A stretch of 43,511 bases of DNA from an uncultured Kiritimatiellota bacterium (GTDB lineage Bacteria; Verrucomicrobiota; Kiritimatiellia; RFP12; DVOR01). Position numbers and translations under genes: made by a program. Position 1 is the first letter of the stretch. The number at the start of each line of letters is the position of its first letter. The notes under the pieces are model-generated. The model was not told where the DNA came from and made no database searches. It saw only the letters and a program-made list of their open reading frames with translations. This document shows positions 6,472 through 37,059 of the stretch, in pieces. The stretch spans positions 1 through 43,511 of the forward strand of contig CALXMT010000022.1 in the NCBI GenBank assembly GCA_944389545.1. Reading direction: 5' to 3'.

Positions 6472-7662
6472 TTACTTGTTTTTGGACTTTTCGCGGGCGG
6501 CCTTGAAGGCTTCGGAGGCCTTGTCCTGGGCGGCGCGCTCGGGGAAGTTGCGGTCGGTCTCGGCGGCACGGAGCTTCTCGAGGAGCTTGGATTCCTCGCC
6601 GGTCAGCGCCTGCGGGGTCTCGGCCAGGAGGACGACGATGAGGTCGCCCTGCGGGAAGCGGCCGACGGCGGGGACGCCCTGGCCGCGGAGGCGCTGCATG
6701 GTGCCATTGGGGGTGCCGGGGCGGACCTTGAGCGTGGCGGTGCCGTTGGGGGTCTCGACCTTGAGCTCGCCGCCGAGGGCCAGCAGGGTGGGCGAGACGC
6801 TGCGGCGCAGGATGAGGTCCTGGCCGTCGCGCTCGAAGAGGTCGCTGGGGGAGACGGCGCAATGGATGATGAGGTCGCCGCGGGGGCCGTTGTTGGGGCC
6901 GGCGTTGCCCTTGCCGGCGACGGGGAAGGCCATGCCGTTGGCCACGCCCGCGGGGATGCGCACATCCACCGTCTCGTGCGAGGCCACCAGACCGTCGCCG
7001 CCGCACTTGGAGCAGGGCTTCTCGACGACGGTGCCGGAGCCGTGGCAGACGGGGCAGGTCTGCTGCATGAGGCCGAAGAAGCCGCGGCTGCGGACCGCGC
7101 CGGTGCCGCCGCACTGCTTGCAGGGCACGCGCTTGGAACCCTTGGCCGCGCCGGAGCCGTTGCAATCGGGGCAGGCCACCGCTGCGCGGACGCGCAGGTG
7201 CTCCATCTTGCCGAAGAGGGCCTCCTCGAAGGTCAGGCGCACCACCTGCTCGGTGTCCTCGCCGCGCTGGGGGCCGGTGTCGCGATGGCCGCGGCCGCCG
7301 CCGAACCCGCCGAAGTTGAAGTTGAAGCCGCCGCCACCGGCGCTGAAACCGCCGCCACCGCCGCCGAAGAACTGGCTGAGGATGTCGCCGAGGTCGGACA
7401 TATCGAAGCCGCCGGCGCCGAAGGCGTTCTTCATGCCGTCGTGGCCGAACTGGTCGTAGGTCTGGCGCTTCTGGGGGTCGGAGAGCACGGCGTAGGCCTC
7501 GGAGGCCTCCTTGAACTTGGCCTCTGCCTCGGCCTTGTTGTCGGGATTGTGGTCGGGGTGCCACTTCATCGCCAACTTGCGATAGGCCTTCTTGATGGTG
7601 TCGGCGTCGGCGTCGCGCGCCACGCCGAGCACCTCGTAGTAGTCGCGTTTCTTGTCGGCCAT
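6472..7662 (-). CDS. dnaJ: Chaperone DnaJ (Hsp40)
   Basis: Co-chaperone that stimulates DnaK ATPase and delivers unfolded clients. 396 residues with the full type I layout: J domain (1-70, HPD at 35-37), glycine/phenylalanine-rich linker with [14 protein letters not shown], a zinc-binding region with four CxxCxGxG repeats ([32 protein letters not shown]) and the C-terminal client-binding domains. The ATG lies 1 nt after the grpE stop (TAACATG), so the genes are translationally coupled. dnaK is not in the window. Confidence 0.98.
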
Positions 7663-7663
7663 G

Positions 7664-8287
7664 TTACGCCTCCTCCGTCTGCGCCGCCGGGGCCTCCGGC
7701 GCGCCGAGCGAGACGATCACCTGCGCGGGGCGGATCACCTTGCCGCCCAGGCGCCACCCCTTGCGGAACTGGCTCACCACGTGGTCTTTGGGCACCGTGG
7801 GGTGCGGCACGGCCGAGAGCGCCTCGTGCGACATCGGGTCGAAGGTCGTGCCTTCGGCGGAGGCGTCGATCACCTCCGCGCCCGAACGCTCCAGCGTCTT
7901 GCGGAACTCATCGGCGATCATCCGCACGCCCTGCGCGAAGGCATCGCCCTCCGGCGCGGACTGCAACGCCAGCTCGAAGTGGTCGAAAATCGGGATCAAG
8001 TCGCCCAACAGACGCTCATTTGCGCGGGCGGTGCGCTCTTCCAGCTCGCGGGCCAGACGCTTCTTCGCGTTGTCGAAGTCCGCCACCGTGCGCAACAGAC
8101 GCTCCTTGGTCTCGGCCAACGCGCGCTCCAGGGCCGCCGTGTCCTGGGCGGGTTCCTGCGGTTTGGCCTCCTGCGCCGGCTCGGCGGGCGCCTCCTTGGG
8201 AGCCTGGGCCTCATTCCCCACGGGGGCCTGCGCCTCAACGCCGCCCTGCTGCTCTGCTTGCTTCACATCTTCTTCTGCCATGGCCAT
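7664..8287 (-). CDS. grpE: Nucleotide exchange factor GrpE
   Basis: Releases ADP from DnaK. 207 residues: an acidic, alanine/glutamine-rich, poorly ordered N-terminus, a long coiled-coil (about 60-110, [20 protein letters not shown]), then the conserved C-terminal beta domain with [15 protein letters not shown] and [17 protein letters not shown]. Two ATGs compete: 8287 (3 nt after AAAGGA, too close) and 8281 (9 nt after it, better). The tRNA-Leu CCA end is only 10 nt upstream, so the ribosome site lies directly at the tRNA 3' end. No CIRCE-type inverted repeat is seen. Confidence 0.96.
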
Positions 8288-8297
8288 AAATCCTTTC

Positions 8298-8381
8298 TGG
8301 TGCCGGAAAGGGGAGTCGAACCCCTACGCCTTGCGGCTGCGGATTTTAAGTCCGCTGTGTCTGCCATTCCACCATTCCGGC
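8298..8381 (-). tRNA. tRNA-Leu(TAA)
   Basis: Read on the minus strand: acceptor stem GCCGGAA (8381-8375) pairs with TTCCGGC (8308-8302), discriminator A at 8301 and an encoded CCA at 8300-8298. The anticodon arm GCGGACTTAAAATCCGC gives anticodon TAA (leucine). A short variable arm and T-arm GGGGTTCGACTCCCC are present. At 84 nt with a class II variable loop it is a normal leucine tRNA. It is probably co-transcribed with grpE, which starts 10 nt downstream. Confidence 0.97.
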
Positions 8382-8393
8382 CTTAATTGCACC

Positions 8394-8399
8394 ATTATA
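8394..8399 (-). promoter_or_regulatory. Extended -10 of the tRNA-Leu/grpE operon
   Basis: Minus strand reads GTGTGGTATAATGG, a consensus TATAAT with a TGG extension, 12 nt upstream of the tRNA 5' end. The expected start site is near 8387. No clear -35 hexamer is seen. Confidence 0.75.
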
Positions 8400-8612
8400 C
8401 CACACCAGTGAAGGAAGGGAACAGAGAACAGAAAACAGAAAACAGAACGCGCGGCAAGCGCGCGACGGATGAGGTTATTGTATATGAGCGGCATAGCCGC
8501 CGTCTTAGTCGTCCTCTATGTCCTCTATATGTCCTACCGAGACGCTTACGTGCGTTTCCCGAAAAACACTAGAAACGCGGTAGTGTCCGGGGAAATCGGC
8601 AAGCCTCTTTTT

Positions 8613-8717
8613 CCCGCAAAGACGCCGGTGCGCGCGAAGAACGATGGGCTAACGCCGGTCGCTTTGCGGGCTAAACGCCCGCTGATCGCTCCCTCCCGCC
8701 CATCGCCTTCGCGCTTG
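8613..8717. repeat. CCCGCAAAG module, copy 2
   Basis: Same module as 1596-1699 in the opposite orientation. It starts 30 nt after a TGTCCGGGGAAA motif, the end sequence of the inserted element described at 29427-29782. Confidence 0.75.
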
Positions 8718-8809
8718 GGGGAGAGACGTAGGGGTGTGGGGCGAAGCCCCTTCCCGAAAACCAAACTTCCAAACCTCCAAGCTTCCAAACTTCCTTATCC
8801 CTTTTGGGC

Positions 8810-8875
8810 GCAGGAAAGTGGGGCGCGGGAGGGCGCACGACCGTGCGCCCGGCGTTAGCGCCCCAGCTTTCCTGC
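8810..8875. repeat. GCAGGAAAG nested hairpin module, copy 2
   Basis: Arms GCAGGAAAG (8810-8818) and CTTTCCTGC (8867-8875), with inner GGGCGCACG / CGTGCGCCC. It could form a stem of more than 20 bp because TGGGGCGC and GCGCCCCA extend the outer arms. Confidence 0.8.
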
Positions 8876-9109
8876 AAGCGTTGCGTCTTTGCGGTTTTCT
8901 GCGAAAACGCAGAGGCGCAAGGGATGGGCACGTTAGTGAGGCCCGGAGGGGCGAACGGTGAAGTGCCCAGGCCCTTGCGCACCTTCGTGTTTTCGTGGAA
9001 ATGGAGCCTCCCCAGATGCTACGAATTTGACAGGAAAGCAATTCATGTGGTACTTTAATGACAGTTCGGTGCCACGGAGTGGCTCGATATGGATCATCCC
9101 AGCCGAACT

Positions 9110-9913
9110 TCACTTTTTTGCGAATGGACTTGTGGGCGGGAAGATTTTCAACCCGTCCACTTTTTCTTTATCCGTGTTGTCGGAATTATAAAAGAAGGGA
9201 AGGATGCGCTTATAAAAGGGGTATTCTGGGTCGTCTTGTGAGAATCTTCGATAGACGTTGTAACTGCACAAATCTGCAAGCTGAACGCCTTCACAAGTTT
9301 CACTTCTCACGAACAAAGGCATCTCGATGATATGTTTGAAATGTTGCCCGGAGGTCGCGCCGCACTCATAGAACATAATTTGGGCCTTGGTGGTCTGAAG
9401 GTTGCGTTGCTTTCCGGTGTCGTCCGTAATCAACAGTGCTTTGTGCTTAGGATGAGATTCAGTCATGTAAAACTCAATGCGCTCGCAAAGCAATTCCCAT
9501 GCTTTGAGATGGATTGCTTTTTGATCCGCGAGGTGTGAGTTGGGCAAAACGGCCTGCTTGTCGATGACGGCAGAGATGATGACCGCCTTGCACAATTCGA
9601 GTTGTTCATAAAACATGGTTGCGATTGCGAGTCGCTCGTCATCCGTCTGATACTTGGAGAAGGGGTGTTTGTCCCGTTCCTTTGGGTTTCTGAGATAAGT
9701 GGATTTCACTTCCGCGTCTGTCGAAACATCCAACTTGACACCTTCATCACGCATGATGCGGTCAATGATTGATTGCTTGAAACGCGTGATGTCAAAGTGG
9801 AAACGCTTCCAGTGATTCTCGTACATTCCCACTGCGGTGAGAATGTAAAAGCGTTCTTTCTCCAAGTGGGAAAAGTCTCGATTGCCAGACTCATCAATGT
9901 AGAATAGATACAT
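9110..9913 (-). CDS. DUF3800 domain protein
   Basis: 267 residues. The N-terminus MYLFYIDESGNRDF carries the DES motif (D7-E8-S9) typical of DUF3800, a family with a predicted RNase H-like fold often found near mobile or defence genes. Later conserved-looking acids are in KALLITDDTGK and GVQLADLCSYNVYRRF. GAGGG lies 7 nt upstream of the ATG. The base composition is visibly less GC-rich than neighbours, which suggests horizontal acquisition. Nuclease activity is only a fold-based inference. Confidence 0.85.
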   Translation of the reverse strand: MYLFYIDESGNRDFSHLEKERFYILTAVGMYENHWKRFHFDITRFKQSIIDRIMRDEGVKLDVSTDAEVKSTYLRNPKERDKHPFSKYQTDDERLAIATMFYEQLELCKAVIISAVIDKQAVLPNSHLADQKAIHLKAWELLCERIEFYMTESHPKHKALLITDDTGKQRNLQTTKAQIMFYECGATSGQHFKHIIEMPLFVRSETCEGVQLADLCSYNVYRRFSQDDPEYPFYKRILPFFYNSDNTDKEKVDGLKIFPPTSPFAKK

Positions 9914-9971
9914 CTATCGCCCTCACTTTATCATATCCGCAGAATACGCTTGAACACCAAGCGCCCTGTGG

Positions 9972-10709
9972 TCACTTGCGGCGCTTGGCGGGGAGGCGCT
10001 CGACGTATTCGCCGTGGCCGAGGTCGGCCATTTCCTTGAGGAAGGGCGACTTTTGGCCGATGGCGATGGCGTGGAAGACGACGTCGCGCGGGGGCGGGGG
10101 AAGGCGCTGTTGGCTGCGGAAGACGGGGCGCTTGGCGGTGGGGCGGCGCCACCCTTTCCAAGGCTCCCACCAGGCGGACTTGAGGCGGAAGAGGTCGCGT
10201 TGGTCGGCGGTCGGGTTCTTGCGCGGCAGGTTATACCAAGCCGTGAGGGCGGCGCGGGCGGGCGTCTCGCCGTAACGGCCGATGTCGTTGTCGCCGAGGT
10301 AGATGATGTGGGTGATATGCTGCTTGGAGACGAGGGGCCAGAGGGTCTCGCCGAAGGTGTGCTCGAAGGAGCCGCCGGAGGTGAAGGTCTTGCCGCGGAG
10401 CTCGGTGAGGAGGGCCTTGGCGGTGCCGGGCTTGGAGAGGTCGAAGGGCGTGGTGCCGGCGTGAGGCTCATCGCCGCCTTCGTAGAGGAGGCTGACGGTG
10501 TAGCAGACGCGGCGGCGTGCGATGATCTCGGCCATTTGGTCGGTCATGCCCGTGACTTCGTCCAAGAGGGTGTCCCAACGCGTGCCGCCATCGGTGCGGG
10601 CGGAATCCTTGCGGCCCATGGATTTGGAGGTGTCGATGACGAGCAGAAGCCGCGCCCCATTCTCCGGCAACTCCACGCCATAGAACATGGGACCGTAGTC
10701 ATTTGGCAT
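9972..10709 (-). CDS. von Willebrand factor A-domain protein
   Basis: 245 residues from the chosen ATG. A MIDAS metal-site motif DxSxS is present (D26-T-S28-K-S30 in LLLVIDTSKSMG), with a later acidic YLGDNDIGRY. The domain spans nearly the whole protein (HIIYLGDND, DVVFHAIAIGQKSPFLKEMADLG). VWA domains bind protein partners through a divalent metal. No signal peptide. The frame is open to 10970, but upstream residues are translated repeats; AAGAGG 5 nt before the ATG at 10709 supports this start. An alternative ATG at 10730 adds seven residues. Both ATGs lie in a strong hairpin. Biological role unknown. Confidence 0.8.
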   Translation of the reverse strand: MPNDYGPMFYGVELPENGARLLLVIDTSKSMGRKDSARTDGGTRWDTLLDEVTGMTDQMAEIIARRRVCYTVSLLYEGGDEPHAGTTPFDLSKPGTAKALLTELRGKTFTSGGSFEHTFGETLWPLVSKQHITHIIYLGDNDIGRYGETPARAALTAWYNLPRKNPTADQRDLFRLKSAWWEPWKGWRRPTAKRPVFRSQQRLPPPPRDVVFHAIAIGQKSPFLKEMADLGHGEYVERLPAKRRK

Positions 10710-10740
10710 GACGGCCTCTTCGGCCGCCATGCCAAATGAC
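10698..10740. repeat. 43-nt hairpin spanning the VWA gene start
   Basis: Arms GTCATTTGGCATGACGGCC (10698-10716) and 10722-10740 are inverted repeats with one mismatch in 19 and a 5-nt loop. On the transcript both candidate start codons (10730 and 10709) and the SD-like AAGAGG sit in or beside this stem, so it could limit translation initiation. Confidence 0.85.
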
Positions 10741-11060
10741 AGAGAACGGAGAACAGAGAACAGAGCGCGCGGCAAGCGCGCGCCGGGCGAAGCGCCGTCA
10801 AGACAGGTGCAATCCAAGTGCTCAGACGATTCATCTTCCAAGGTTTCATCTTGGCTCCTTTGTGAGAGACTTTGCTTCTTTGCGGGTGCCGCGCAGTGTT
10901 TCCCGGCTTTGTTCGTCGCCCCGCAGGGGCGTTCTGTGGCCGTGGAAGGTTTGCGGCTTCGCCGCTGCACGCTCTGTTCTCTGTTTTCTGTTCTCTAGGG
11001 CGCGTTAGCGCCCTCCTGTTCTCTGTTCTCTGCGCAGTGGTGAGGGGCGCGGCGCGCCCC
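10741..11060. repeat. Repeat mosaic between the yifB and VWA genes
   Basis: GGAGAACAGAGAAC heptads and a GC palindrome on the left (10741-10790), a CTTTGTGAGAGACTTTGC stretch, the CGCCCCGCAGGGGCG palindrome (10917-10931), then GTTCTCT heptads (about 10974-10997 and 11008-11031). A 27-nt palindrome (11039-11065, GGTGAGGGGCGCG arms) overlaps the yifB stop codon. Confidence 0.75.
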
Positions 11061-12590
11061 TCACCATTGCGCACGATCCAGGGCGCGGTATTGGATGGCT
11101 TCGAAGAGGTGTTCGCGGGCGATGGTCTGGGCGCCGGCGAGGTCGGCGATGGTGCGGGCGACGCGGAGAATGCGGGAGTAGGCGCGGGCGGTGAGGCCGA
11201 GTTCGTCCATGGCGGAGCGGAGGACGGTCTGCGCGGCGGGTTCGAGGGGGCAGAAGCGTTGGAGCTGGCCGGCGGGGAGGTCGGCGTTGCTGCGGATTCG
11301 GGGGAGGTCGGCGTAGCGTTTGGCCTGGAGGGCGCGGCAGGCGAGGACGCGTGCGCGGATGTCGGCGGAGCTTTCGCCGGGGGCCTGCTTGGAGAGGTCT
11401 TCGAAGGGGACGGCGGGGACCTCGACGTGGAGGTCGATGCGGTCGAGGAGGGGGCCGGAGACGCGGGAGCGGTAACGGTGGATCTGGGGCTCGGTGCAGC
11501 GGCAGGCGCGCTTGGGGTCGCCGGCGAAGCCGCAGGGGCAGGGGTTCATGGCGGCCACGAGCATGAAGTCGGCGGGGAAGGTGAGGGTGCCGGCGGTGCG
11601 GGCGATGGTGACGGCACCGTCTTCGAGCGGTTGGCGGAGGACCTCGAGGACGTGACGGTGGAACTCGGGGAGTTCGTCGAGGAAGAGGACGCCGCGGTGG
11701 GCGAGGGAGACTTCGCCGGGGGTGGGGTGGGTGCCGCCGCCGATGAGGCCGGCGTCGGAGACGGTGTGGTGGGGCGCGCGGAAGGGACGGCGCGCGATGA
11801 GGCCGCCGCGGAGGGCGCCGGCGACGGAGTGGATAGCGGTGACCTCGATGGCTTCCTCGGGGGTGAGGGGCGGGAGGATGGAGGGGATGCGGCGGGCGAT
11901 CATGGTTTTGCCGCTGCCGGGGGAGCCGATGAGGAGGATGTTGTGGCCGCCGGCGACGGCGACCTCGACGGCGCGGCGTGCGAGGGCCTGGCCCTTGACG
12001 TCGGCGAAGTCCTCACCGCCGGCGGCGCCTTGGGCGAAGAGGGCGTCGCGGTCGACGCGGTGCGGGGTGGGGGGCGTCTGGCCGGAGAGAAGGTCGAAGG
12101 CCTCGCGGAGGGTCTTGACGGGCCAGACGTCGATGCCTTCGACGAGGGCGGCCTCGTCGGCGTTGGGGGCGGGGACGATGATGGCGCGGAAGCCGCGGTC
12201 GCGCAGGGCCAGGGTGATGGGCAGGACGCCGCGGATGCGCCGCACTTCGCCGCTGAGGGCAAGCTCGCCGAGCACGGGCACGGTGTCGAGGAGCGGCAGT
12301 TTGTGGGAGCCGTCGGTGGCGAGGAGGGCCAGGGCGATGGGCAGGTCGTAGACGGGGCCCTCTTTGCGGAGGTCGGCGGGGGCGAGGTTGACCGTCACGG
12401 AGGCGGGCTTGAGGCGGAAGAGGGAGTTGCGCAGGGCGGCGTGGACGCGGTCGATGCTCTCTTTGACGGCGGTGTCGGGCAGGCCCACGACGCGTGTGCG
12501 GGGGTCTTCGGAGGAGAGGGCGTGGACTTCGATCTCGACGGGCTCGGCGCCGATGCCGTGGACTGCCGCCGCGTGCGCTTTGGTTAGCAT
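11061..12590 (-). CDS. YifB/ComM-family Mg-chelatase-like AAA+ ATPase
   Basis: 509 residues, the usual family length. An N-terminal ribosomal-S5-like domain (HGIGAEPVEIEVHALSSEDPRTRVVGLPD) precedes a Mg-chelatase-type AAA+ core with Walker A GSPGSGKT, Walker B-like GVLFLDELPEF, and the C-terminal helical lid (SARAYSRILRVARTIADL equivalent). In transformable bacteria ComM is a helicase that promotes branch migration during recombination; in other species the role is less clear. The frame extends upstream to 12821 through repeat sequence, but family homology starts at MLTKAHAAAVHG, so ATG 12590 is chosen. Confidence 0.95.
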   Translation of the reverse strand: MLTKAHAAAVHGIGAEPVEIEVHALSSEDPRTRVVGLPDTAVKESIDRVHAALRNSLFRLKPASVTVNLAPADLRKEGPVYDLPIALALLATDGSHKLPLLDTVPVLGELALSGEVRRIRGVLPITLALRDRGFRAIIVPAPNADEAALVEGIDVWPVKTLREAFDLLSGQTPPTPHRVDRDALFAQGAAGGEDFADVKGQALARRAVEVAVAGGHNILLIGSPGSGKTMIARRIPSILPPLTPEEAIEVTAIHSVAGALRGGLIARRPFRAPHHTVSDAGLIGGGTHPTPGEVSLAHRGVLFLDELPEFHRHVLEVLRQPLEDGAVTIARTAGTLTFPADFMLVAAMNPCPCGFAGDPKRACRCTEPQIHRYRSRVSGPLLDRIDLHVEVPAVPFEDLSKQAPGESSADIRARVLACRALQAKRYADLPRIRSNADLPAGQLQRFCPLEPAAQTVLRSAMDELGLTARAYSRILRVARTIADLAGAQTIAREHLFEAIQYRALDRAQW

Positions 12591-12966
12591 GATGGGGCCG
12601 CCTTCATGAGGTGAGGGAGGGGTGCGGGAGGGGTGCGGGTGGGGCGGCTGAAGCCGCCCCAGAGAACAGAGAACGGAGAACAGAGAACAGAGCGCGCGGC
12701 AAGCGCGCGACGGGCGAAGCGAAGGAAGAATGATGGGGCGTGGAACGCCAAGAGAAGTCGAGAGCTTGGGCGGCGAAGCCGCTGTCCTGCATCTCCTGAA
12801 CCTCCTGCATCTCCTGAACACGCGTGTTCTCCAAAGCGGTAAGCTTATGGGCTTGCCGCTCTTGCGCGTGTAAGGTTGTCAGTTGAGGGCTCATGGTTTC
12901 TCAAGAGATGTCTTTGTCGCCCCGCAGGGGCGTTTCTGTTCTCCGTTCTCTGTTCTCTGTTCTCTA
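12591..12966. repeat. Repeat mosaic between the secreted-protein gene and yifB
   Basis: A GGGGTGCGGGA direct repeat (12620-12641), GGGGCGGCTGAAGCCGCCCC palindrome (12641-12660), GGAGAAC heptads (12660-12692), GCGCGGCAAGCGCGC palindrome, a 9-bp array CTGCATCTC/CTGAACCTC (12787-12820), then CGCCCCGCAGGGGCG and GTTCTCT heptads (12936-12966). No coding potential is supported. Confidence 0.75.
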
Positions 12967-27794: not shown

Positions 27795-29381
27795 TTATGT
27801 GGCGGGCGTGAGGGTTTCCTCGATGGCGTCGGTGAGGGTGTTGGAGGCGGGGTCGAAGGCCAGGCCGATGAGGTGGATGGTCTTGCCGGGGACTTGGTAG
27901 GGTTTGGCGTAGCCTTTGTCCTTGATTTGGGCGAGGGCCTCGGCGGCGGTGCCGCGAATCTTGAGTTCGAAGATGTAGACTTGGTCCATGGACTCAGCGA
28001 CGAGGTCGGCGCGGCCTTGGGCCTGGCGGTCTTCGGCGGTGACGCGAAGTCCGCCGGCGGAGAGGAGGGCATAGAGGGCGCGCTGGTAGGCGGCCTCGTG
28101 GATGGGCCCCTCTTTGGCACCGTAGGGCAAGTGGGCGTAGAAGGCTTTGAGTCGCGCGAAGAAGGTTGGGAAGTCGCCGGTCAACAGGGCCGTCTGAAGG
28201 TCGTCGCTGGTCTCATCGGCCTCATCGCCGAGCGCTTTGTTCAGCAGGAGGCTATTCAGGTCTTGGCGGACGTCCTCATCGGGTACACCAAGGGCGTAAA
28301 ATTTGGGTGGAATAAAGTCCTTGATGGTGAGGTACCCGGCCTGATAGAGGACGGTCTCGGGACGGAGCGCGCCAAGGTTGTAGTTGTCGAAGATGCTCTT
28401 GGAAACGAGCGGCAGACGGTCGTAGTCCTTGTCCACCAGGTTCTCTCGTTCCAGATAACGCATGAGCGCGGAGGCATGGCCCGTCTCCGACCACGTTGTC
28501 TCAAAGTAGGGCTTTTTGCGCGAGAGTACGCGCGCAATGGCGACAGGGTTATAGACCGTGGTCGTGCAATCGGGGGAGAAGCGGTAGCCGTTGTACCAAC
28601 GGCGGAGCTCGGCGCGATAGTCTGCGTCCGAGAGGCCCATGACCTTGGCGTGGGCTTGGAGGGAGGGGGCGAAGTTGGCGTCCAGTTCCTCGTCCGTGTA
28701 ACCCAAGAGCGTGGCGGCCTCGGATTGGAGCGTCAGGTCGGTGAGATTGTTGAGCGCGGAGAAGACGGAGAGCTGCGCGAACTTCGTCACGCCGGTCATC
28801 ATCATGAAGCGGATGTTGGCAGCGTTGTTCTTGATTTCACCGTAGAAAGCGGCAAGCTCGGTGCGGATGGCCGAGGCCTTGGCGATATCGTTCATCGCGG
28901 CGCCAACGGGCGCGTCATACTCGTCGACCAAGACGACCATGGGCTTGCCGCGCTCTGCGGTCACCGTCTGAATGGCCTGTGCAAAGTTGTCGTTTGGCGC
29001 GAGCGTAGGGTCGTAAATGATCTTGGCTTGCGCAAATGCTTGTCGCACACGTGCCACGAACCCTGCGTAAAAATCCTCGAAGGTATTCACTTTCATCGTG
29101 GCAAAGTTGAAGTGGAGCACGGGATACTCTGTCCAATCGTAGTCCAGCTTGTCGATGGCCAGGCCCTGGAAGAGGTCGCGCTCGCCACGGAAGATACATT
29201 CCAACGTGGAGAGCATCAGCGACTTGCCGAAGCGCCGCGGACGCGAGATGAAGAAGAGCTTCCCGCCGATATCAATCCCCTCGACCAAGCGATAGAGCGG
29301 CTCGGTCTTGTCCACATAAATGAATTTCTTCTCCCACAGTTCGCGGAAGTCGCTTATGTCTTGCGCAATCCGTTGTTCCAT
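27795..29381 (-). CDS. AAA-ATPase-like / PD-(D/E)XK nuclease family protein, paralog 1
   Basis: 528 residues. N-terminal AAA-ATPase_like domain (PF09820 type) with the variant P-loop SRPRRFGKSLMLSTL and Walker B MVVLVDEYDAPV; C-terminal PD-(D/E)XK nuclease domain (PF08011 type) with GRADLV, FELKIRG and QIKDKGYAKPY giving D-ExK and a downstream Gln-Tyr motif. Such proteins are abundant in gut anaerobes; a mobile-element or defence role is suspected but not shown. AAGGAGG lies 6 nt before the ATG and the leader is very short. It is a tandem paralog of 29843-31414; C-terminal halves are nearly identical while residues about 100-190 have diverged. Confidence 0.9.
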   Translation of the reverse strand: MEQRIAQDISDFRELWEKKFIYVDKTEPLYRLVEGIDIGGKLFFISRPRRFGKSLMLSTLECIFRGERDLFQGLAIDKLDYDWTEYPVLHFNFATMKVNTFEDFYAGFVARVRQAFAQAKIIYDPTLAPNDNFAQAIQTVTAERGKPMVVLVDEYDAPVGAAMNDIAKASAIRTELAAFYGEIKNNAANIRFMMMTGVTKFAQLSVFSALNNLTDLTLQSEAATLLGYTDEELDANFAPSLQAHAKVMGLSDADYRAELRRWYNGYRFSPDCTTTVYNPVAIARVLSRKKPYFETTWSETGHASALMRYLERENLVDKDYDRLPLVSKSIFDNYNLGALRPETVLYQAGYLTIKDFIPPKFYALGVPDEDVRQDLNSLLLNKALGDEADETSDDLQTALLTGDFPTFFARLKAFYAHLPYGAKEGPIHEAAYQRALYALLSAGGLRVTAEDRQAQGRADLVAESMDQVYIFELKIRGTAAEALAQIKDKGYAKPYQVPGKTIHLIGLAFDPASNTLTDAIEETLTPAT

Positions 29382-29401
29382 CTTGGGCCTCCTTGTCCCA
29401 C

Positions 29402-29407
29402 AGTATA
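29402..29407 (-). promoter_or_regulatory. Extended -10 of AAA paralog 1
   Basis: Minus strand TTTGCTATACTGTGGG: TATACT with a TGC extension, 20 nt upstream of the ATG. Identical to the site at 31435-31440. Confidence 0.6.
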
Positions 29408-29426
29408 GCAAACCGGGGCCGCACGC

Positions 29427-29782
29427 AACACTGTCCGGGGAAAATGGGGACCGCAAAGACGCAACAATGGGCGCGAACCGCTTCGGGCTCCATCGGTCGC
29501 TCTGCGGCTTCGCCGCTGACCGCGACCGCCGCCCTCCGTTTCGCGCCTTCTCGGTTTCCCAGGAATCCCACCCGTCGCCCCGCAGGGGCGTTCTGTTCTC
29601 CGTGGCCGTGGAAGGTTTGGCGCTTCGCGCCTGCACGCTCCGTTCTCCGGGGCGGCAACGCCGCCCCTTTGGCGCGATAGCGTGGAAATCCCAAGGGCGG
29701 CGCGACCAACGGGAGCGATGGAGCCCGCAGGGTTCCCACGCAAGGCCATCTTCGCGGTAAAACTTCCCCGGACACTATTGGA
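29427..29782. mobile_element. 356-bp non-coding inserted element with 8-bp target duplication
   Basis: Flanked by CCGCACGC on both sides (29419-29426 and 29783-29790). The uninterrupted site AACCGGGGCCGCACGCGGGG is readable at 31444-31463, upstream of the second AAA paralog. Termini share TGTCCGGGGAA in inverted orientation (29432-29442 and 29763-29773). Inside are intergenic modules: CCGCAAAGACGC, GCCGCTGACCGCG, CGCCCCGCAGGGGCG, a GTTCTCC heptad, GGGGCGGCAACGCCGCCCC and GTGGAAATCCCAAGGGCGGC. There is no transposase, so it behaves like a MITE mobilised in trans. Confidence 0.75.
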
Positions 29783-29842: not shown

Positions 29843-31414
29843 TCAGACGAGGGTTTCTTCTTGGGCGTCGGTGAGGGTGTTGGAGGCGGGGTCGAAGGCC
29901 AGGCCGATGAGGTGGATGGTCTTGCCGGGGACTTGGTAGGGTTTGGCGTAGCCTTTGTCCTTGATTTGGGCGAGGGCCTCGGCGGCGGTGCCGCGAATCT
30001 TGAGTTCGAAGATGTAGACCCGGTCCATGGACTCGGCGACGAGGTCGGCACGGCCTTGGGCCTGGCGGTCTTCGGCGGTGACGCGGAATCCGCCGGCGGA
30101 GAGGAGGGCGTAGAGGGCGCGTTGGTAGGCGGCCTCGTGGACGGGGCCCTCTTTGGCGCCGTAGGGCAGGTGGGCGTAGAAGGCCTTGAGCCGCGCGAAG
30201 AAGGCTGGGAAGTCGCCGGTCAACAGGGCCGTCTGAAGGCCATCGCTGGTCTCATCGGCCTCATTGCCGAGGGCTTTGTTGAGCAGGAGGGCGTTGAGAT
30301 CCTGCCGGACGTCTTCATCGGGCACGCCAAGGACATAAAGTCTGGGGGGGATGAAATCTTTAATGGTGAGGTAACCGGCCTGATAGAGGACGGCCTCGGG
30401 ACGAAGCTTGCCAAGATCGTAGCTGTCGAAGAGGCTTTTGCCGACGGGCGACAGACGGTCGTAATTCTTGTCCGCCAAGTTTTCCCGTTCCAGATAGCGC
30501 ATGAGCGCGGAGGCATGGCCCGTCTCCGACCACGTGGATTCGAAGACCGGCAACCGACGAGAGAGCGTGCGCGCGATGGCGACAGGGTTATAGACCTTAG
30601 TCGTGGTCCAAGGGGAGAAGCGGTAGCCGTTGTACCAGCGGCGGAGTTCGGCGCGATAATCCGTGTCCGAGAGGCCCATCACCTTGGCGTGGGCCTGAAG
30701 GGAGGGCGCGAAGTTGGCGTCCAGTTCCTCGTCCGTGTAACCCAAGAGCGTGGCGGCCTCGGGCTGGAGTGTGAGGTCGTTGAGATTGTTGAGGGCGGAG
30801 AAGACGGAAAGTTGCGCGAACTTTGTCACGCCGGTCATCATCATGAAGCGGATGTTGGCCCCATGCGCCTTGAGCTGGGAATAAAAGGGCGAGAGTTCCG
30901 AACGGATGGCTGTGGCCTTGGCGATATCGCCCATCGCGCGGGTGACAGGCGCGTCGTACTCATCGATCAGTACGACCACCGGACTTTTATGTTTCGCCGC
31001 CAACCAATCAATGGCAGACCCAAAGTTGCGGTGCGTACTGTCAGTTTCGTCCCACAGCGCGCCGGCATCGAGCAGAGCATCGCGGACGGTCTTTCGCAAA
31101 TCAGACCTAAACGACTCAAGGGTCGTCTCAGAGAGTACGGAGAAGTCAAAGCGAATAATCGGATACTTCGCCCAATCGTAGTCCAGCGTGTCGATGGCGA
31201 GGCCTTTGAAGAGGTCGCGCTCGCCGCGGAAAATGTACTCCAGGGTGGAGAGCATGAGGGACTTGCCAAAGCGCCGCGGGCGGGAAATAAAGAAGAAGGA
31301 GTCACTTCCCCGCGTCAGCAAAGGATAGAGGATTGCCGTCTTGTCCACGTAAACATAACCATCCTCCCGCAATTTGCGGAAGTTGAATACACTCTGCGCA
31401 ATCCGTTGTTCCAT
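29843..31414 (-). CDS. AAA-ATPase-like / PD-(D/E)XK nuclease family protein, paralog 2
   Basis: 523 residues with the same layout as paralog 1: P-loop SRPRRFGKSLMLSTL, Walker B VVVLIDEYDAPV, nuclease motifs GRADLV, FELKIRG and QIKDKGYAKPY. Residues from FMMMTGVTKFAQLSVFSALNN to the end are nearly identical to paralog 1, including GFRVTAEDRQAQGRADL. The segment between GLAID and MGDIAKA (about 80-180) is heavily diverged, as is residues 8-30. The C-terminus ends LTDAQEETLV rather than LTDAIEETLTPAT. It follows mnmE at 52 nt and has its own -10 box and AAGGAGG. Confidence 0.9.
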   Translation of the reverse strand: MEQRIAQSVFNFRKLREDGYVYVDKTAILYPLLTRGSDSFFFISRPRRFGKSLMLSTLEYIFRGERDLFKGLAIDTLDYDWAKYPIIRFDFSVLSETTLESFRSDLRKTVRDALLDAGALWDETDSTHRNFGSAIDWLAAKHKSPVVVLIDEYDAPVTRAMGDIAKATAIRSELSPFYSQLKAHGANIRFMMMTGVTKFAQLSVFSALNNLNDLTLQPEAATLLGYTDEELDANFAPSLQAHAKVMGLSDTDYRAELRRWYNGYRFSPWTTTKVYNPVAIARTLSRRLPVFESTWSETGHASALMRYLERENLADKNYDRLSPVGKSLFDSYDLGKLRPEAVLYQAGYLTIKDFIPPRLYVLGVPDEDVRQDLNALLLNKALGNEADETSDGLQTALLTGDFPAFFARLKAFYAHLPYGAKEGPVHEAAYQRALYALLSAGGFRVTAEDRQAQGRADLVAESMDRVYIFELKIRGTAAEALAQIKDKGYAKPYQVPGKTIHLIGLAFDPASNTLTDAQEETLV

Positions 31415-31434
31415 CTTGGGCCTCCTTGTCCCAC

Positions 31435-31440
31435 AGTATA
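31435..31440 (-). promoter_or_regulatory. Extended -10 of AAA paralog 2
   Basis: TATACT with TGC extension on the minus strand. The 5' flank is identical to that of paralog 1 from the ATG to about 45 nt upstream, showing the promoter was duplicated with the gene. Confidence 0.6.
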
Positions 31441-31466
31441 GCAAACCGGGGCCGCACGCGGGGCGG

Positions 31467-33092
31467 TCACTTGCCGATGCAGAAGTGGGAGAAGAGGCGG
31501 TCGAGGAGGTCGTCGGCGTAGACGCGGCCGAGGATTTGGCCGAGGGCGTCGGCGGCGTCGCGGAGGCGCTGGGCGGCGGGGACGAGGCCGGGTTCGCCGC
31601 GATCGAGGGCGGCTCGGGCGTCTTGGAGTGCGGCGAGGGTTTGGGCGAGGCCGGCGTATTGGCGCTCGGTGGCGAGGGTGGCGACGTCGCGTTCGCCTTG
31701 CTGTGTGGCGAGGGCTTGGCGGAGGAGGGCGAAGACGGTTTTGCGGGCGCCCTCGGGGTCGGCCAGTGCGGAGATGGCGGCCTCGGGTCTCCACGAAGAC
31801 ACGAAGGGACGCAAGGGACCGGGCACTTCACCGTTCGGCCCTGCGGGCCTCTCTACCGTGCCCGGCCCTTGCGTTCCTGACGTATTCGCAGAAACGCTAG
31901 GCACTCCAAACGCTGTGCCGCAGGGCACTCCCAAAGGCTCCACTGACTTTGCGCCACAGGGCGCTTCCAAAGGTGCACCAGGCACAGCGTCGCAGGGCAC
32001 TTCCAAAGGCTCCACTGGCACAGCGTCACAGGGCACACCAGGCACAGCGCCACAGGGCGCTTCCAAAGGCACACCAGGCACAGCGCCGCAGGGTGGGGTG
32101 GGGAGGAGGTCGGATTTGGTGCGGAGGAGGATGGCGGCGGGGGGGAGGTCGGGGGGCGGGTCTTCGCCGGGGGGCAGAAGGCAGAGGACGACGTCGGCAC
32201 GGGCGATGAGGTCTTTGGCGCGGGCGACGCCTTGTCGCTCGATGTCGCCGGGGGCATCGCGCAGGCCGGCGGTGTCGACGAGGCGGAGGGGGACGCCATC
32301 GAGGTCGAGGGCCTCTTCGATGGAGTCGCGGGTGGTGCCGGGCTCGGGGCTGACGATGGCACGGTCGGCGCCGAGGAGGGCGTTGAGAAGGGTGGACTTG
32401 CCGGCGTTCGGGGGACCGGCGAGGACGACGAGGGCGCCTTGGCGGAGGAGGCGACCCTGACGCCAGGTGGCGAGGAGGGCGTGGGCGCGGTCGGCGAGGT
32501 CGGCGAGACGTTCGCGGGCTTGGTCGGCGAAGTCGGGCGGGAGCTCGCCTTCATCGAAGTCCAGCAGGTGCTCGACGTCTGCGGAGAGGGCGAGGGCGTC
32601 GTCGTAGAGCGGCGTGAGGGCGTTGGAGAGGCGGCCGTGGAGGTTGGCGCGGGCGGCCTGCTCGGCGCGGGGGGTCTTGGCGGCGATGAGGTCGGCGACG
32701 GCTTCGGCCTGAGTGAGGTCGAGTCGGCCATTGAGGAAGGCGCGGCGGGTGAATTCGCCGGGGCCGGCGGGGCGGGCGCCCAGACGGAAGAGGGCGTCGA
32801 GGACGCGTTGGGGCACGACGGCGCCGCCGTGGACGCAGAGCTCGACGGTGTCCTCGCCGGTGTAGGAGTGGGGCGCGCGGTAGAAGAGAAGGACGGCGTC
32901 ATCGAGGGCTTCACCTTCGGGGCCGCGGAGCGTGGCGTAGGCGAAGGTGCCGGCGGGGCGGTCGCTCGGCGGGGGCGAGAGTCGCGGGGCCAAGCGGTCG
33001 GCGATGGCATAGACCCCCTCGCCGCTCAGGCGGATGAGGGCGACGCCGCCGAGTCCGGGGGCGGAGGCGAGGGCCGCGATGGGCTCAGCCAT
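31467..33092 (-). CDS. mnmE: tRNA modification GTPase MnmE with in-frame repeat insertion
   Basis: With MnmG, installs 5-carboxymethylaminomethyl groups on U34 of tRNAs. 541 residues versus about 450 normally. N-terminal folate domain ([20 protein letters not shown]), helical domain, then a G domain with G1 [10 protein letters not shown] (K at about 232), G2 TTRDSIEE, G3 DTAGLRD and G4 TKSD (325-328) in place of NKxD, and the C-terminal CIGK catalytic Cys motif (538-541). About 102 extra residues follow [10 protein letters not shown]: 12- and 8-residue units ([12 protein letters not shown] type) then translated intergenic module. The ATG overlaps the hemD-part stop by 8 nt. Core motifs otherwise look intact. 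Confidence 0.95.
31787..32095. repeat. Minisatellite plus intergenic module inside mnmE
   Basis: 31902-32095 is a minisatellite of 36-bp and 24-bp units (GGCACAGCGCCACAGGGCGC followed by TTCCAAAGGCACACCA or variants), all multiples of 12. 31787-31880 is the CTCCACGAAGACACGAAGG module seen in gaps at 1279, 17338 and 19284. Total length is a multiple of three and contains no minus-strand stop in the mnmE frame. Confidence 0.85.
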
Positions 33093-35076
33093 GGCAGACT
33101 TCCCGGAAACGAGTGAGGGCCCAGGCGCGGATGGCGTCGGCGGGGAGCTGGCGCGCGGGGACGGCGGCAGGTGCGTGGCCGAGGTCGCGGAGTGCGGTGG
33201 CGGTGGGGCCGCCAAGGGCGAGGACGGGGACGTCTTTGGGCGCGGCGGAGGCGGCCCAGGCGCGTGCGGCGGAGGCGGAGGCCAGGAAGACGGCATCGTG
33301 CGGGGGCGGCTCGGTCTCGGGCAGGCCGACGGTGCGGTAAATGGGGAGGTCCTTGACCTTGGCGCCGCGGGCCTTGAGGGCTTGGGCGAGGTCGGGGCCG
33401 GCCTCCTCGCTGCGGACGCGGAGAATCTTGCAACCCGAGAGGTCCTGCGGCAGGGCGGCCAGGAGGCCCTTGGCGGAGAAGTCGCGCTCGGGCATCAACG
33501 TGTCGATGTGCAGATGGGCGAGTGCGGCGGCGGTGCCGGGGCCCGTGACGGCGAGGCGCTTGGGCAGGTATTGGATGGGGCTGACGAGCTGTTCCAACAG
33601 GAAGCGCGCGGCGGTGGGCGAGGTGACGACCAGGAGATTGTAACCCTTGCTAGGGCGGATCTTGACGGAGGCCGTGGGCTCGAAGCGGACGAGCGGGCGG
33701 ACGACCGGGATGCCGCCGAGGTCCAGGACCGCCTCGCGGGCCTTGTCGGCGACGCCGGCGGAACCGGTGATCCAGACGCGTTGGCCGGCCAGGGGGCCGT
33801 TTTCGGGCCAGGCATGCTTGGCGGCCTCGCCGACGAGGAGGAGGCCGGGGGCGTCGTTGGGCTGCGGGCGGAGGTCGGCGACGGTGCCGCGCCAGACGCG
33901 TTGGGCGGGGCCCCAGGCGTCGTAGACGATGGCGCAGGGGGTGTCCGGGGCGTAGCGGCGGGCGACGGCGTCGGCCATGCCCAGGGCCATGAACCAGACA
34001 TCGGTGGTCTCGTCGCCGGTGGCGCGGGGGGTGGAAACGGCGAAGCCGCGGCCGGCCTCGCGGCGGGTCAGGAGCATGCCGGTGGCGGCGGGCGCGGCGG
34101 CCAGGGCGGAGACGCCGGGCCAGACGCGGAAGGGGAGGCCGTCGGCGGCGAGGGCGTCGGTCTCCTCGGCCAAGCGGCCAAAGACACCGGGGTCGCCGCC
34201 CTTGAGGCGGACGACGCGTTGGCCGCGGCGGGCGCGTTCGCCCAGAAGCGCGGTGATTTCGGCCTGCGGCAGGGAGTGTGCGCCGCTGCGCTTGCCGACA
34301 TAGAGGCGTTCGCCGCGGGCGCCGTCGAGGAGCGAGGGGTCGAGGAGCGCGTCGTAGACGATGACGTCGGCGGCGCGGAGTTCGCGGAGGCCGGCGACGG
34401 TGCAGAGTCCGGCGTCGCCCACGCCCGCGCCCACGAAGCGGACGGCCTTGATGTAGAGGTTGCGCAGGGCACGGAGGCGCGGGTCGTCGCGACGGAAGGT
34501 CATGGCGAGCACGCCTTGGCCCGGGGGCGGGGGCAGGTCCTCCAAAGAGATGTATGCGCTGATGCGGTCGCGGAGGCCGAGACGGTGGAGCGCGGCGGCG
34601 GCCACGACGATGGCGTCGTAATCGCCGCGGTCGAGTTTGGCGAGGCGGTCGGGGATGGCGCCGCGGAGGGTGACGCGCTCGGCCTCGGGGAAGCGCTTGG
34701 CGCACCAGGCGTCGCGGCGGCCACTGCTCACACCGACGCGGCGGGGCTCGGCCACGCGGGTCACCAGACAGTCGCGCGGGTCCTCGCGCCAGGGCAACCA
34801 GAACCAATCGAGGCCTTCGGGGAGGCCTTCGGGGGGAAGGTCCTTGGCGGAGTGGATGGCGCAGTCGATGCGGCCCTCGAGGAGCGCTTGGTCGAGGTCA
34901 CGCGTGAAGAAGTCGCCGGGGCTGACGCGCAGGTCGGTGGCTTGGTCGCGGTCGCCGGGCGAGGAGAAGGGCACGACCTTGAAGTCGAGGCCGGTCTCGT
35001 CGCGGAGCTTGGCGAGGGCGTCGTTGGTCTGGAGGAGGGAGAGGGCGGAATCGCGCGTGCCGCAGGTCAGGGTCAT
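33085..35076 (-). CDS. Fused HemC-CobA-HemD: porphobilinogen deaminase, uroporphyrinogen-III methyltransferase and synthase
   Basis: 663 residues. 1-208: hydroxymethylbilane synthase (HemC) domains 1 and 2, with [17 protein letters not shown] (catalytic D79), SSGRRDAW (R120-R121) and [11 protein letters not shown]. The third domain with the dipyrromethane-cofactor cysteine is missing: the chain passes from LRALRNLY directly into 212-425, a SUMT/CobA domain ([28 protein letters not shown]). 430-663: HemD-like uroporphyrinogen-III synthase ([43 protein letters not shown]). Together these give precorrin-2 from porphobilinogen. AAGGAG precedes the ATG; the stop overlaps mnmE. Confidence 0.9.
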
Positions 35077-35099: not shown

Positions 35100-36392
35100 T
35101 CAGGGGAGGGCGTCGTAGGCTTGTTCGGCGGCGGCGAGGAGGGCATCCAGCGCGCCGGTGCGGCGGAGGTAGTCGCCGCGGAGGTCGTCCAGGTCGCGGA
35201 CGCCGTCGTCGCCGGCGATGTTGCGGGGCGCGCCGAGGTCATAGGCCGGAACGCCGCCCAGCCCGGCCGCGTCGAAACAGGGCTTCTCCACGGTCAACGC
35301 CGCGAGGAAACGGTCGGCCCCGCGCACGGCCTCGCGCCACGCGTCCAAGGGGCGGCAGTCCTCGCCTGCCAACGGCGTGCGGTGATAGAGCACGGTCATG
35401 GGCAGACCCATCGCGTGGGCCTTGGCGACGGCCGCGCGGCCCAGACGCCCCGTGCCGGCGATGACCACACGGCCCTTGGCGCCGTCGAGCGCGAGCTCCT
35501 CGACCTCGACGTTGGGGATGAGCGGGGCGACGGCGGCGCGGACGGCCTGCGCGCGGCGGAGCGCCTCGGCATAGGCATCCATCAGGTGACTGCACGCCCA
35601 GCCCTGTTCACGGGCCTCCTCGAAGGCATCGCGGACCTGCCCCACGATGTGGAACTCCCCGGCCATCTTGGCGCGCATCCCCGCGAGCACCATCGTCAGG
35701 TGGCGCATCGCGTCGGGGCCGACAAAAGCGCGGGCGCCGGGCAGGTGCAGGGCGTGTCCGGGCAGTCCGCTGGCGATGAGTTCGGGCGCGGCCCAGGCGA
35801 TCAGCTCGGTGCGGTTGCAGGTGCGCAGGAGGGCCCAGCCGTAGAGGCCGTTGAGGAAGGCGAAGCGCGCGGCCAGGGTCTCGATCGGCGGCAGGGCGGC
35901 GGCCTCCTCCACGCCCAGCACGTAGAGCACGCCGGGCGAGACGCGCGCCAGGCTGCGGGCCAACCCCTCGCGCACCTCCTTGGCCGTGCGGCAACTGCGT
36001 CCGTCGGTCGAGACGGCGAGGGTCAGCCCTTCCATGCGCAGGGTGGCCGGCACGATGAAGTCGCCCTCGGCCCAATTGCCGTCGGCGCAACAGCAGGCCA
36101 CGCCGCGGGCGCGGGCCGCGGCCAGGACGGCGCGATTGGTGTGCTTGTCATCGGTGCAGGCGAAGACCAGGCGGCACCCCGCCACGTCGTCCGGCACGAA
36201 ACAGCGCGTCACGCGCTCGATGGGCAGGCCGTCGAAGTCGGCCACCGCCTCGGGGCAGACCAGACGCACCGTGGCGCCGGCCTCCAGCAGGGCCTTGGCC
36301 TTGCGCAGGCCCACGCGGCCGCCGCCCACCACCAGGGCCGTCGCGCCCTCGATGAGCAGGTTTGCGGGGAAGGTCTTGCGCACGGGCCGCAT
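35100..36392 (-). CDS. Fused precorrin-2 dehydrogenase (SirC-like) and glutamyl-tRNA reductase (HemA)
   Basis: 430 residues. 1-150: CysG N-terminal/Met8-type NAD-dependent precorrin-2 dehydrogenase, with VVGGGRVGLRKAKALLEAG, ACTDDKHTN and AVSTDGRS. 153-430: glutamyl-tRNA reductase with the catalytic cysteine in TCNRTE (C192), GEFHIVGQVRDAF, a Rossmann NADPH site VVIAGTGRLGRAAVAKA and a C-terminal dimerisation segment. The reductase N-terminus is shortened. It makes glutamate-1-semialdehyde and oxidises precorrin-2 to sirohydrochlorin, the first and penultimate siroheme steps. ATG overlaps the bioD stop (TGATG) and follows GGAGGG at 6 nt. Confidence 0.9.
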   Translation of the reverse strand: MRPVRKTFPANLLIEGATALVVGGGRVGLRKAKALLEAGATVRLVCPEAVADFDGLPIERVTRCFVPDDVAGCRLVFACTDDKHTNRAVLAAARARGVACCCADGNWAEGDFIVPATLRMEGLTLAVSTDGRSCRTAKEVREGLARSLARVSPGVLYVLGVEEAAALPPIETLAARFAFLNGLYGWALLRTCNRTELIAWAAPELIASGLPGHALHLPGARAFVGPDAMRHLTMVLAGMRAKMAGEFHIVGQVRDAFEEAREQGWACSHLMDAYAEALRRAQAVRAAVAPLIPNVEVEELALDGAKGRVVIAGTGRLGRAAVAKAHAMGLPMTVLYHRTPLAGEDCRPLDAWREAVRGADRFLAALTVEKPCFDAAGLGGVPAYDLGAPRNIAGDDGVRDLDDLRGDYLRRTGALDALLAAAEQAYDALP

Positions 36393-37033
36393 CACACGCC
36401 CTCCAGGATGGGCATCTCCAGCCACGTCGCGCCCGGGAAGGTCTTGGCCGCCTCGGCACGCAGCAAACGCCGCGTGTCATCGTTGATCAGCGGGTCCTTG
36501 CGGCCCGGCCAGGCATTGTAGACAAGGGTTTCGACTTTTGCGCCGCGCCGCGCCAACGCCTCAAAGGAGAGCAACGCGTGGTTCACCGAGCCCAACGCCC
36601 CGTGCAACACAAAGATGAAGGGCCATCCCTGCGCGACCGCGAAATCGACCGTCAGCAAATCCTCGCGCAACGGCACCATCAGGCCGCCCGCGCCCTCCAC
36701 CAAGACGTCTTGATAGCGCGCGTCAAGAATCTCCGCGCACGCCGTCAGACGCGCCGGGTCGATCTCGGCCCCGGCCAGACGCGCGGCCAGGTCAGGCGAG
36801 CAGGGGTGCGGGAAGATATAGGGCGCCGTCAGCCCCTCCGCGTCCTCGGGCAACGGCCCCACGCCCATCATGGCCCGGTGGCGCGCGATGTCCTCGGAGC
36901 TTCCCACGTTGCCGGTCTGCGCCAACTTCAGCGTTGCCACACGCCGCCCGGCGTCCAGCCACGTCCGCGCCAACCATCCCGTCGCGATGCTCTTGCCCGC
37001 GTCCGTGTCCACGCCACTCACAAAATGAATCAT
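36392..37033 (-). CDS. bioD: Dethiobiotin synthetase BioD
   Basis: Forms the ureido ring of dethiobiotin from 7,8-diaminopelargonic acid, CO2 and ATP. 213 residues. P-loop GVDTDAGKS (7-15), substrate lysine region LKLAQTG, VEGAGGLMVPL, and VNHALLSFEALARRGAKV are typical. ATG 37033 follows AAAGGG at 6 nt; an ATG at 37057 adds eight residues. It heads an operon with the siroheme polyproteins and mnmE by overlapping or closely spaced starts. No other biotin gene is present, so the coupling looks like operon shuffling. Confidence 0.92.
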   Translation of the reverse strand: MIHFVSGVDTDAGKSIATGWLARTWLDAGRRVATLKLAQTGNVGSSEDIARHRAMMGVGPLPEDAEGLTAPYIFPHPCSPDLAARLAGAEIDPARLTACAEILDARYQDVLVEGAGGLMVPLREDLLTVDFAVAQGWPFIFVLHGALGSVNHALLSFEALARRGAKVETLVYNAWPGRKDPLINDDTRRLLRAEAAKTFPGATWLEMPILEGV

Positions 37034-37059
37034 GCCATGCCCTTTCTTACGAATCATGC

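Follow-up and report, generated by a model that had tools for sequence, protein, structure and literature searches.

Can a hydroxymethylbilane synthase (HemC) work without the domain to which its cofactor is attached? Heme, siroheme, B12 and chlorophyll all go back to this enzyme, whose domain 3, together with the cysteine therein, is treated as indispensable. The cofactor is attached at Cys242 in E. coli and at Cys261 in human, and as this cysteine moves it draws the chain past the catalytic aspartate (PMC8561815); the human Cys261 is intolerant to mutation and no substitution is tolerated (PMC10577081). The question is raised by a gene in the window (the whole stretch of 43,511 nucleotides analyzed here, from an uncultured Kiritimatiellota bacterium), in which domains 1-2 of HemC run straight into a SUMT (CobA) domain. 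With a natural lineage that lacks domain 3, one can test whether the covalent cofactor is essential or one way of holding the chain.

The fusion gene

The gene (33085 to 35076, minus strand), identified by its open reading frame and Pfam domains and kept in the genus, encodes a HemC-CobA-HemD protein of 663 amino acids; its start codon is the ATG at 35076, with AAGGAG just upstream. Residues 1-208 (34453 to 35076, minus strand) are HemC domains 1-2, as the original prediction had it: PF01379 matches residues 4-202 (E 9.5e-51, 172.7 bits), TIGR00212 yields 166.2 bits, just over its cut-off of 164, and the structural alignment to 1pda covers the same part. The HemD (uroporphyrinogen-III synthase) domain at the other end, residues 430-655 (33112 to 33789, minus strand), is matched by PF02602 at residues 447-643 (E 4.1e-32, 111.6 bits) and aligns with 4es6. 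PF03900, the model of HemC domain 3, gives no match in the 663 residues, and CobA begins 4 residues after HemC. The claim that the start of a SUMT domain has replaced domain 3 is thereby borne out.

The CobA domain, residues 210-425 (33802 to 34449, minus strand), is matched by PF00590 (TP_methylase) at residues 214-402 (E 5.5e-34, 118 bits) and is the sole SUMT detected in the genome of the window. Its score for the equivalog TIGR01469 is below the cut-off (160.7-161.7 versus 185 bits), which is exceeded by the CobA parts of same-type relatives (genomes G483, G252, G187 and G218). The active-site positions for uro'gen binding and catalysis are conserved (Asp242, Lys262, Asp295, Arg301, Glu304 and Met363). 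Compared with SUMT, the C-terminal half of CysG and NirE, the TP_methylase fold, the GGDP motif, Arg301, Glu304 and Met363 are shared, whereas the domain is shorter and has GAGVGDxxLCT for GAGPGDPxLLT and FGRLAEE for FGRGGEE.

The fusion gene lies in an operon-like run that starts with bioD (dethiobiotin synthase; 36392 to 37057, minus strand, true start possibly at 37033; TIGR00347 122.9 bits, cut-off 83.3). Next come a gene in which a CysG-type precorrin-2 dehydrogenase is joined to a short, divergent HemA (35100 to 36425, minus strand; PF13241 and PF05201), the fusion gene itself and mnmE (31467 to 33092, minus strand; PF10396, PF12631 and PF01926), its start overlapping the fusion gene's stop. 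The last three genes stay adjacent in every locus of the genus that reaches far enough. The HemA part is another shortened enzyme in this operon: it scores 41.6 bits against a TIGR01035 cut-off of 209.6 and its dimerisation domain is without a match, while the TCNRTEL active site is retained.

A second HemC or a decaying gene

The original prediction named a separate full-length hemC, with the present copy degraded in relatives, as the finding that would speak against it. The draft genome of the window (2.53 Mb) holds a single PF01379 match, which is the HemC part of the fusion, and PF03900 finds nothing genome-wide even at E<=10, although the same model does match in 11 of the 14 genomes used as controls. 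In relatives assembled as a single contig, G218, G483, G283 and G252 among them, HemC likewise matches once per genome and PF03900 in none. Across the phylum survey PF03900 is absent from nearly all other genomes with the domain-3-less fusion, several of them single-contig; the sole weak match (G314, E 0.006) is in an unrelated frame far from the HemC of that genome. The PF03900 tally by itself overstates the loss of domain 3, because many domain 3s of Verrucomicrobiota match over only 25 residues around the cysteine.

Given that the genome is in 61 contigs and 95.8% complete, domain 3 or an entire HemC might still come from another gene, too divergent to be detected or falling in an assembly gap. 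The searches at E<=10 and in the single-contig relatives make this very improbable. Even harder to credit is an inactive HemC domain that survives for its fold or as part of a dimer, for which the missing domain 3 and the equally short and divergent HemA next door could be adduced. The dN/dS of the HemC domain is 0.08-0.23 in three comparisons, similar to the CobA and HemD domains and indicative of purifying selection, and the catalytic residues are invariant over 103 sequences. Moreover, HemB is kept (15 of 17 genomes of the genus, all 9 of the good ones, and the genome of the window), as are users of siroheme (a NirA-type siroheme reductase is encoded in the window's genome), with no other HemC to supply them. 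A degraded gene or a second hemC copy is rejected on the grounds of the single PF01379 match, the missing PF03900 and the purifying selection.

Distribution and lineage

The truncated fusion recurs widely in related genomes, where the original prediction suggested looking for it. Sixteen of the 17 genomes of the genus match it (14 at full or nearly full length, the others split at contig ends), and in the order the genes retrieved from families f1, f3 and f5 show the same junction. When extended with the phylum survey and 75 additional loci, the distribution covers most HemC-bearing families of the class Kiritimatiellia and, in addition, families f42, f50, f51, f58, f60, f65, f67, f71 and f79. 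Because the fusion is found in nearly all of the genus, across the order and class and in other families, the absence of domain 3 is confirmed as a real feature beyond chance.

The spacing of the junction is constant: 4 residues separate the end of the HemC model from the start of the CobA model in all window-type proteins, whereas in fusions that retain domain 3 the stretch from HemC domains 1-2 to CobA measures 52-120 residues. In a maximum likelihood tree of domains 1-2 (120 rows, unrooted, bootstrap incompletely settled) the window-type HemCs group together with support 100/99, and all domain-3-less HemCs fall on one side of a 100/100 branch. This is compatible with a single loss of domain 3, but does not prove it. 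The domain-3-less HemCs form a separate, old and widespread lineage rather than a case of decay.

A second domain-3-less HemC-CobA-HemD type occurs in the class (loci L234-L251; families f10, f12, f18, f19, f29 and f35), with a gap of 7-8 residues between HemC and CobA. Most of its members have lost Arg120 in HemC, and Lys292 and Arg301 are lost in CobA. That this CobA is a mere stand-in for domain 3 is unsupported, as G314, G253 and other genomes have no other good SUMT match. One domain-3-less fusion lies outside the PVC group, in Spirochaetes bacterium GWF1_51_8 (locus L090, 5980 to 7932, plus strand); here the gap is 9 residues, Arg120 is lost and the CobA loop has no cysteine. Genome G409 carries two window-type domain-3-less fusions (L202 and L197).

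The order of the three enzymes is itself already known from other bacteria in the data set: fusions of Clostridia (L094, L095, L105, L106, L115, L121 and L129) share it but retain domain 3. The same holds for genus g11 of the order of the window's genome (L020, L021 and L024), where a short domain 3 and its cysteine (GADC/GATC) are present in HemC and Ile or Val takes position 225. The g11 operon is arranged differently (cysG-N, hemB, hemL, hemA, hemC-cobA-hemD; locus L177 in G037, 7270 to 12966), and its fusion is probably a replacement by transfer, since its HemC groups with ordinary HemCs in the tree of domains 1-2. The short synthase modelled by NF002202 (PRK01066, 241 positions), which we take to be chlamydial, likewise has no room for a full domain 3; this model describes a stand-alone protein and matches residues 3-204 at 115 bits, far below its cut-off of 251. 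In a literature search of incomplete coverage, HemCs without domain 3 were not described in any paper, and neither were HemC-CobA-HemD fusions of Kiritimatiellae or Lentisphaerae or a short HemC of chlamydiae.

Active site and predicted structure

The HemC part resembles the known hydroxymethylbilane synthases (TIGR00212; E. coli 1pda, human 3ecr) in domains 1-2, in fold, in the catalytic aspartate and in the Arg, Lys and Ser residues that bind the cofactor. It differs in having neither domain 3 nor a cysteine at the usual place, and in its active-site loop, which reads SPGDFF instead of VGGKGLF. The catalytic Asp79 (E. coli Asp84; 34840 to 34842, minus strand) and Arg120-Arg121 (E. coli Arg131-Arg132; 34714 to 34719, minus strand) are where the original prediction placed them. 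All three are invariant in 46 of 46 relatives. Asp79 is kept in 103/103 window-type sequences, 18/18 of the second type and L090; Arg120-Arg121 is kept in 103/103 window-type sequences.

The cofactor and the substrate acid groups are bound in E. coli HemC by Arg11, Lys83, Asp84, Arg131, Arg132, Arg149 and Arg155. Besides Asp79, Arg120 and Arg121, the residues invariant over the 103 window-type sequences are Arg8, Ser10, Gln16, Ser76, Lys78, Asp102, Ser117, Ser118, Arg138, Arg144, Gln187 and Gly188, and by alignment these comprise the E. coli binders. As the cofactor-binding residues are conserved while the usual cysteine is missing, the comparison of sequences indicates that the cofactor site is kept and its usual tether gone. 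No single cysteine within HemC domains 1-2 is common to all domain-3-less enzymes in the alignments.

AlphaFold2 yields a pLDDT of 93.5 and a pTM of 0.92 for the whole chain and a pTM of 0.86 for residues 1-352; the domain arrangement is therefore predicted with confidence. HemC domains 1-2 of the model superpose on solved HemCs with Z scores of 23-24 (1pda: Z 23, rmsd 1.6 A), and the HemD part on 4es6 with Z 15.8. In many rows the structural alignment runs on into domain 3: residues 237-238 of the model, within CobA, fall on residues 281-284 of bacterial enzymes, and residue 314 on residue 322 of human HemC. The output gives range ends only and a number of rows break off where domain 2 ends, but the model suggests that the N-domain of CobA occupies the position of domain 3.

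A candidate anchor in CobA

The candidate is Cys225 (34402 to 34404, minus strand), in the loop that joins strand 1 to helix 1 of CobA (GAGVGDxxLCT) just past the junction. CobA, which stands in the place of domain 3 in the chain, often has a new cysteine there: it is present in 89 of 113 window-type proteins and in 0 of 81 SUMTs from genomes without this type, where the position holds Leu, Ile, Val, Phe or Met (Fisher 4e-33, relatedness ignored). The second type, a sister group, has a cysteine elsewhere in the same loop (VGCPAD) in 17 of 18 cases. Reconstruction on the tree makes Cys225 ancestral for the window type, with approximately 8 changes where shuffling would lead one to expect 21. 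An unfused CobA of the class (L252) also carries Cys225, and its junction looks window-type.

Cys225 is not universal. It has been lost about 8 times within the window-type group and is missing in 24 of the 113 proteins (one large clade plus single cases). At least three enzymes (L015, L214 and L232) lack both Cys225 and Cys72 and offer no other plausible cysteine near the site, with their catalytic residues intact. Of the two options in the original prediction, that another part supplies the cofactor anchor or that the mechanism differs, the first gains support from Cys225, and the second is kept alive by these losses.

We propose that the fusion is a three-function enzyme (hydroxymethylbilane synthase, SUMT and uroporphyrinogen-III synthase) and the only hydroxymethylbilane synthase found in the organism, its HemC part deriving from an old lineage that gave up domain 3. 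The N-domain of CobA, held at a fixed short distance behind HemC domain 1, would replace domain 3 and close the active site, with dipyrromethane still bound by the unchanged residues of the cleft (Arg, Lys, Ser and Asp79). A substitute anchor is the leading mechanism, and supply of the cysteine by another part is plausible though unproven; for the protein of the window, tethering to Cys225 would be the most likely arrangement, to which we nevertheless assign a chance somewhat short of even. Cys225 would likewise hold the cofactor in most members of the type. Hydroxymethylbilane would then be handed to HemD, which would supply CobA with uroporphyrinogen III, and the resulting precorrin-2 would go to the product of the neighbouring dehydrogenase gene on the way to siroheme. 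The order HemC-CobA-HemD is unlike the order of the reactions, because HemD acts before CobA; channelling from porphobilinogen to precorrin-2 by the fusion is a plausible inference.

The supply of a cysteine is an incomplete account for some relatives: at least three enzymes offer no plausible replacement, so non-covalent or primer-free chemistry stays in play. Dipyrromethane, or a chain begun on free porphobilinogen, would then be kept in place by the arginine-rich cleft alone, with CobA closing it off, the fused HemD would take the product directly, and Cys225 would be incidental or merely helpful. Every non-covalent contact to the cofactor is invariant, and the second type and L090 have lost Arg120, an E. 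coli cofactor contact, which implies that cofactor handling changed in that branch. Still, we judge the absence of any covalent anchor unlikely, as the enrichment of Cys225 is too strong for an accident and the human anchor tolerates no replacement (PMC10577081). The loop cysteine could alternatively serve the SUMT reaction or the packing of the domains, with the cofactor on another residue such as Cys72 where present. Cys72 is found in 19 of 23 enzymes without Cys225 against 28 of 80 with it, an association that is uncorrected for relatedness and in which the losses of Cys225 cluster. However, Cys72 is missing in the majority of window-type proteins and lies in the beta strand before HSAKD, where it is probably buried and where the residue in ordinary HemCs is Leu, Ile, Phe or sometimes Cys as well, which makes this reading distinctly improbable.

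The arrangement would also be an instance in which one enzyme of a pathway has taken on a structural role of the enzyme before it. More broadly, the sequences predict that a whole bacterial lineage makes the first linear tetrapyrrole without domain 3, with the next pathway enzyme in its place. It is less likely than not, though by no means negligible, that this lineage works without any covalent dipyrromethane, the chain being held by the cleft and the docked CobA and the product passed on within one polypeptide; the cysteine in the methyltransferase loop may be an anchor recruited in most members.

Other features of the locus

The mnmE gene downstream carries an insert at 31917 to 32093 consisting of 36- and 60-base tandem repeats, which resemble an 11-residue motif in translation and are unalignable in most other members of the genus. 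Two long paralogous ORFs that neighbour each other (27795 to 29636 and 29843 to 31831, minus strand) share near-identical stretches and both start with MEQRIAQ; we take them to be AAA-ATPase/PD-(D/E)XK nuclease-like proteins.
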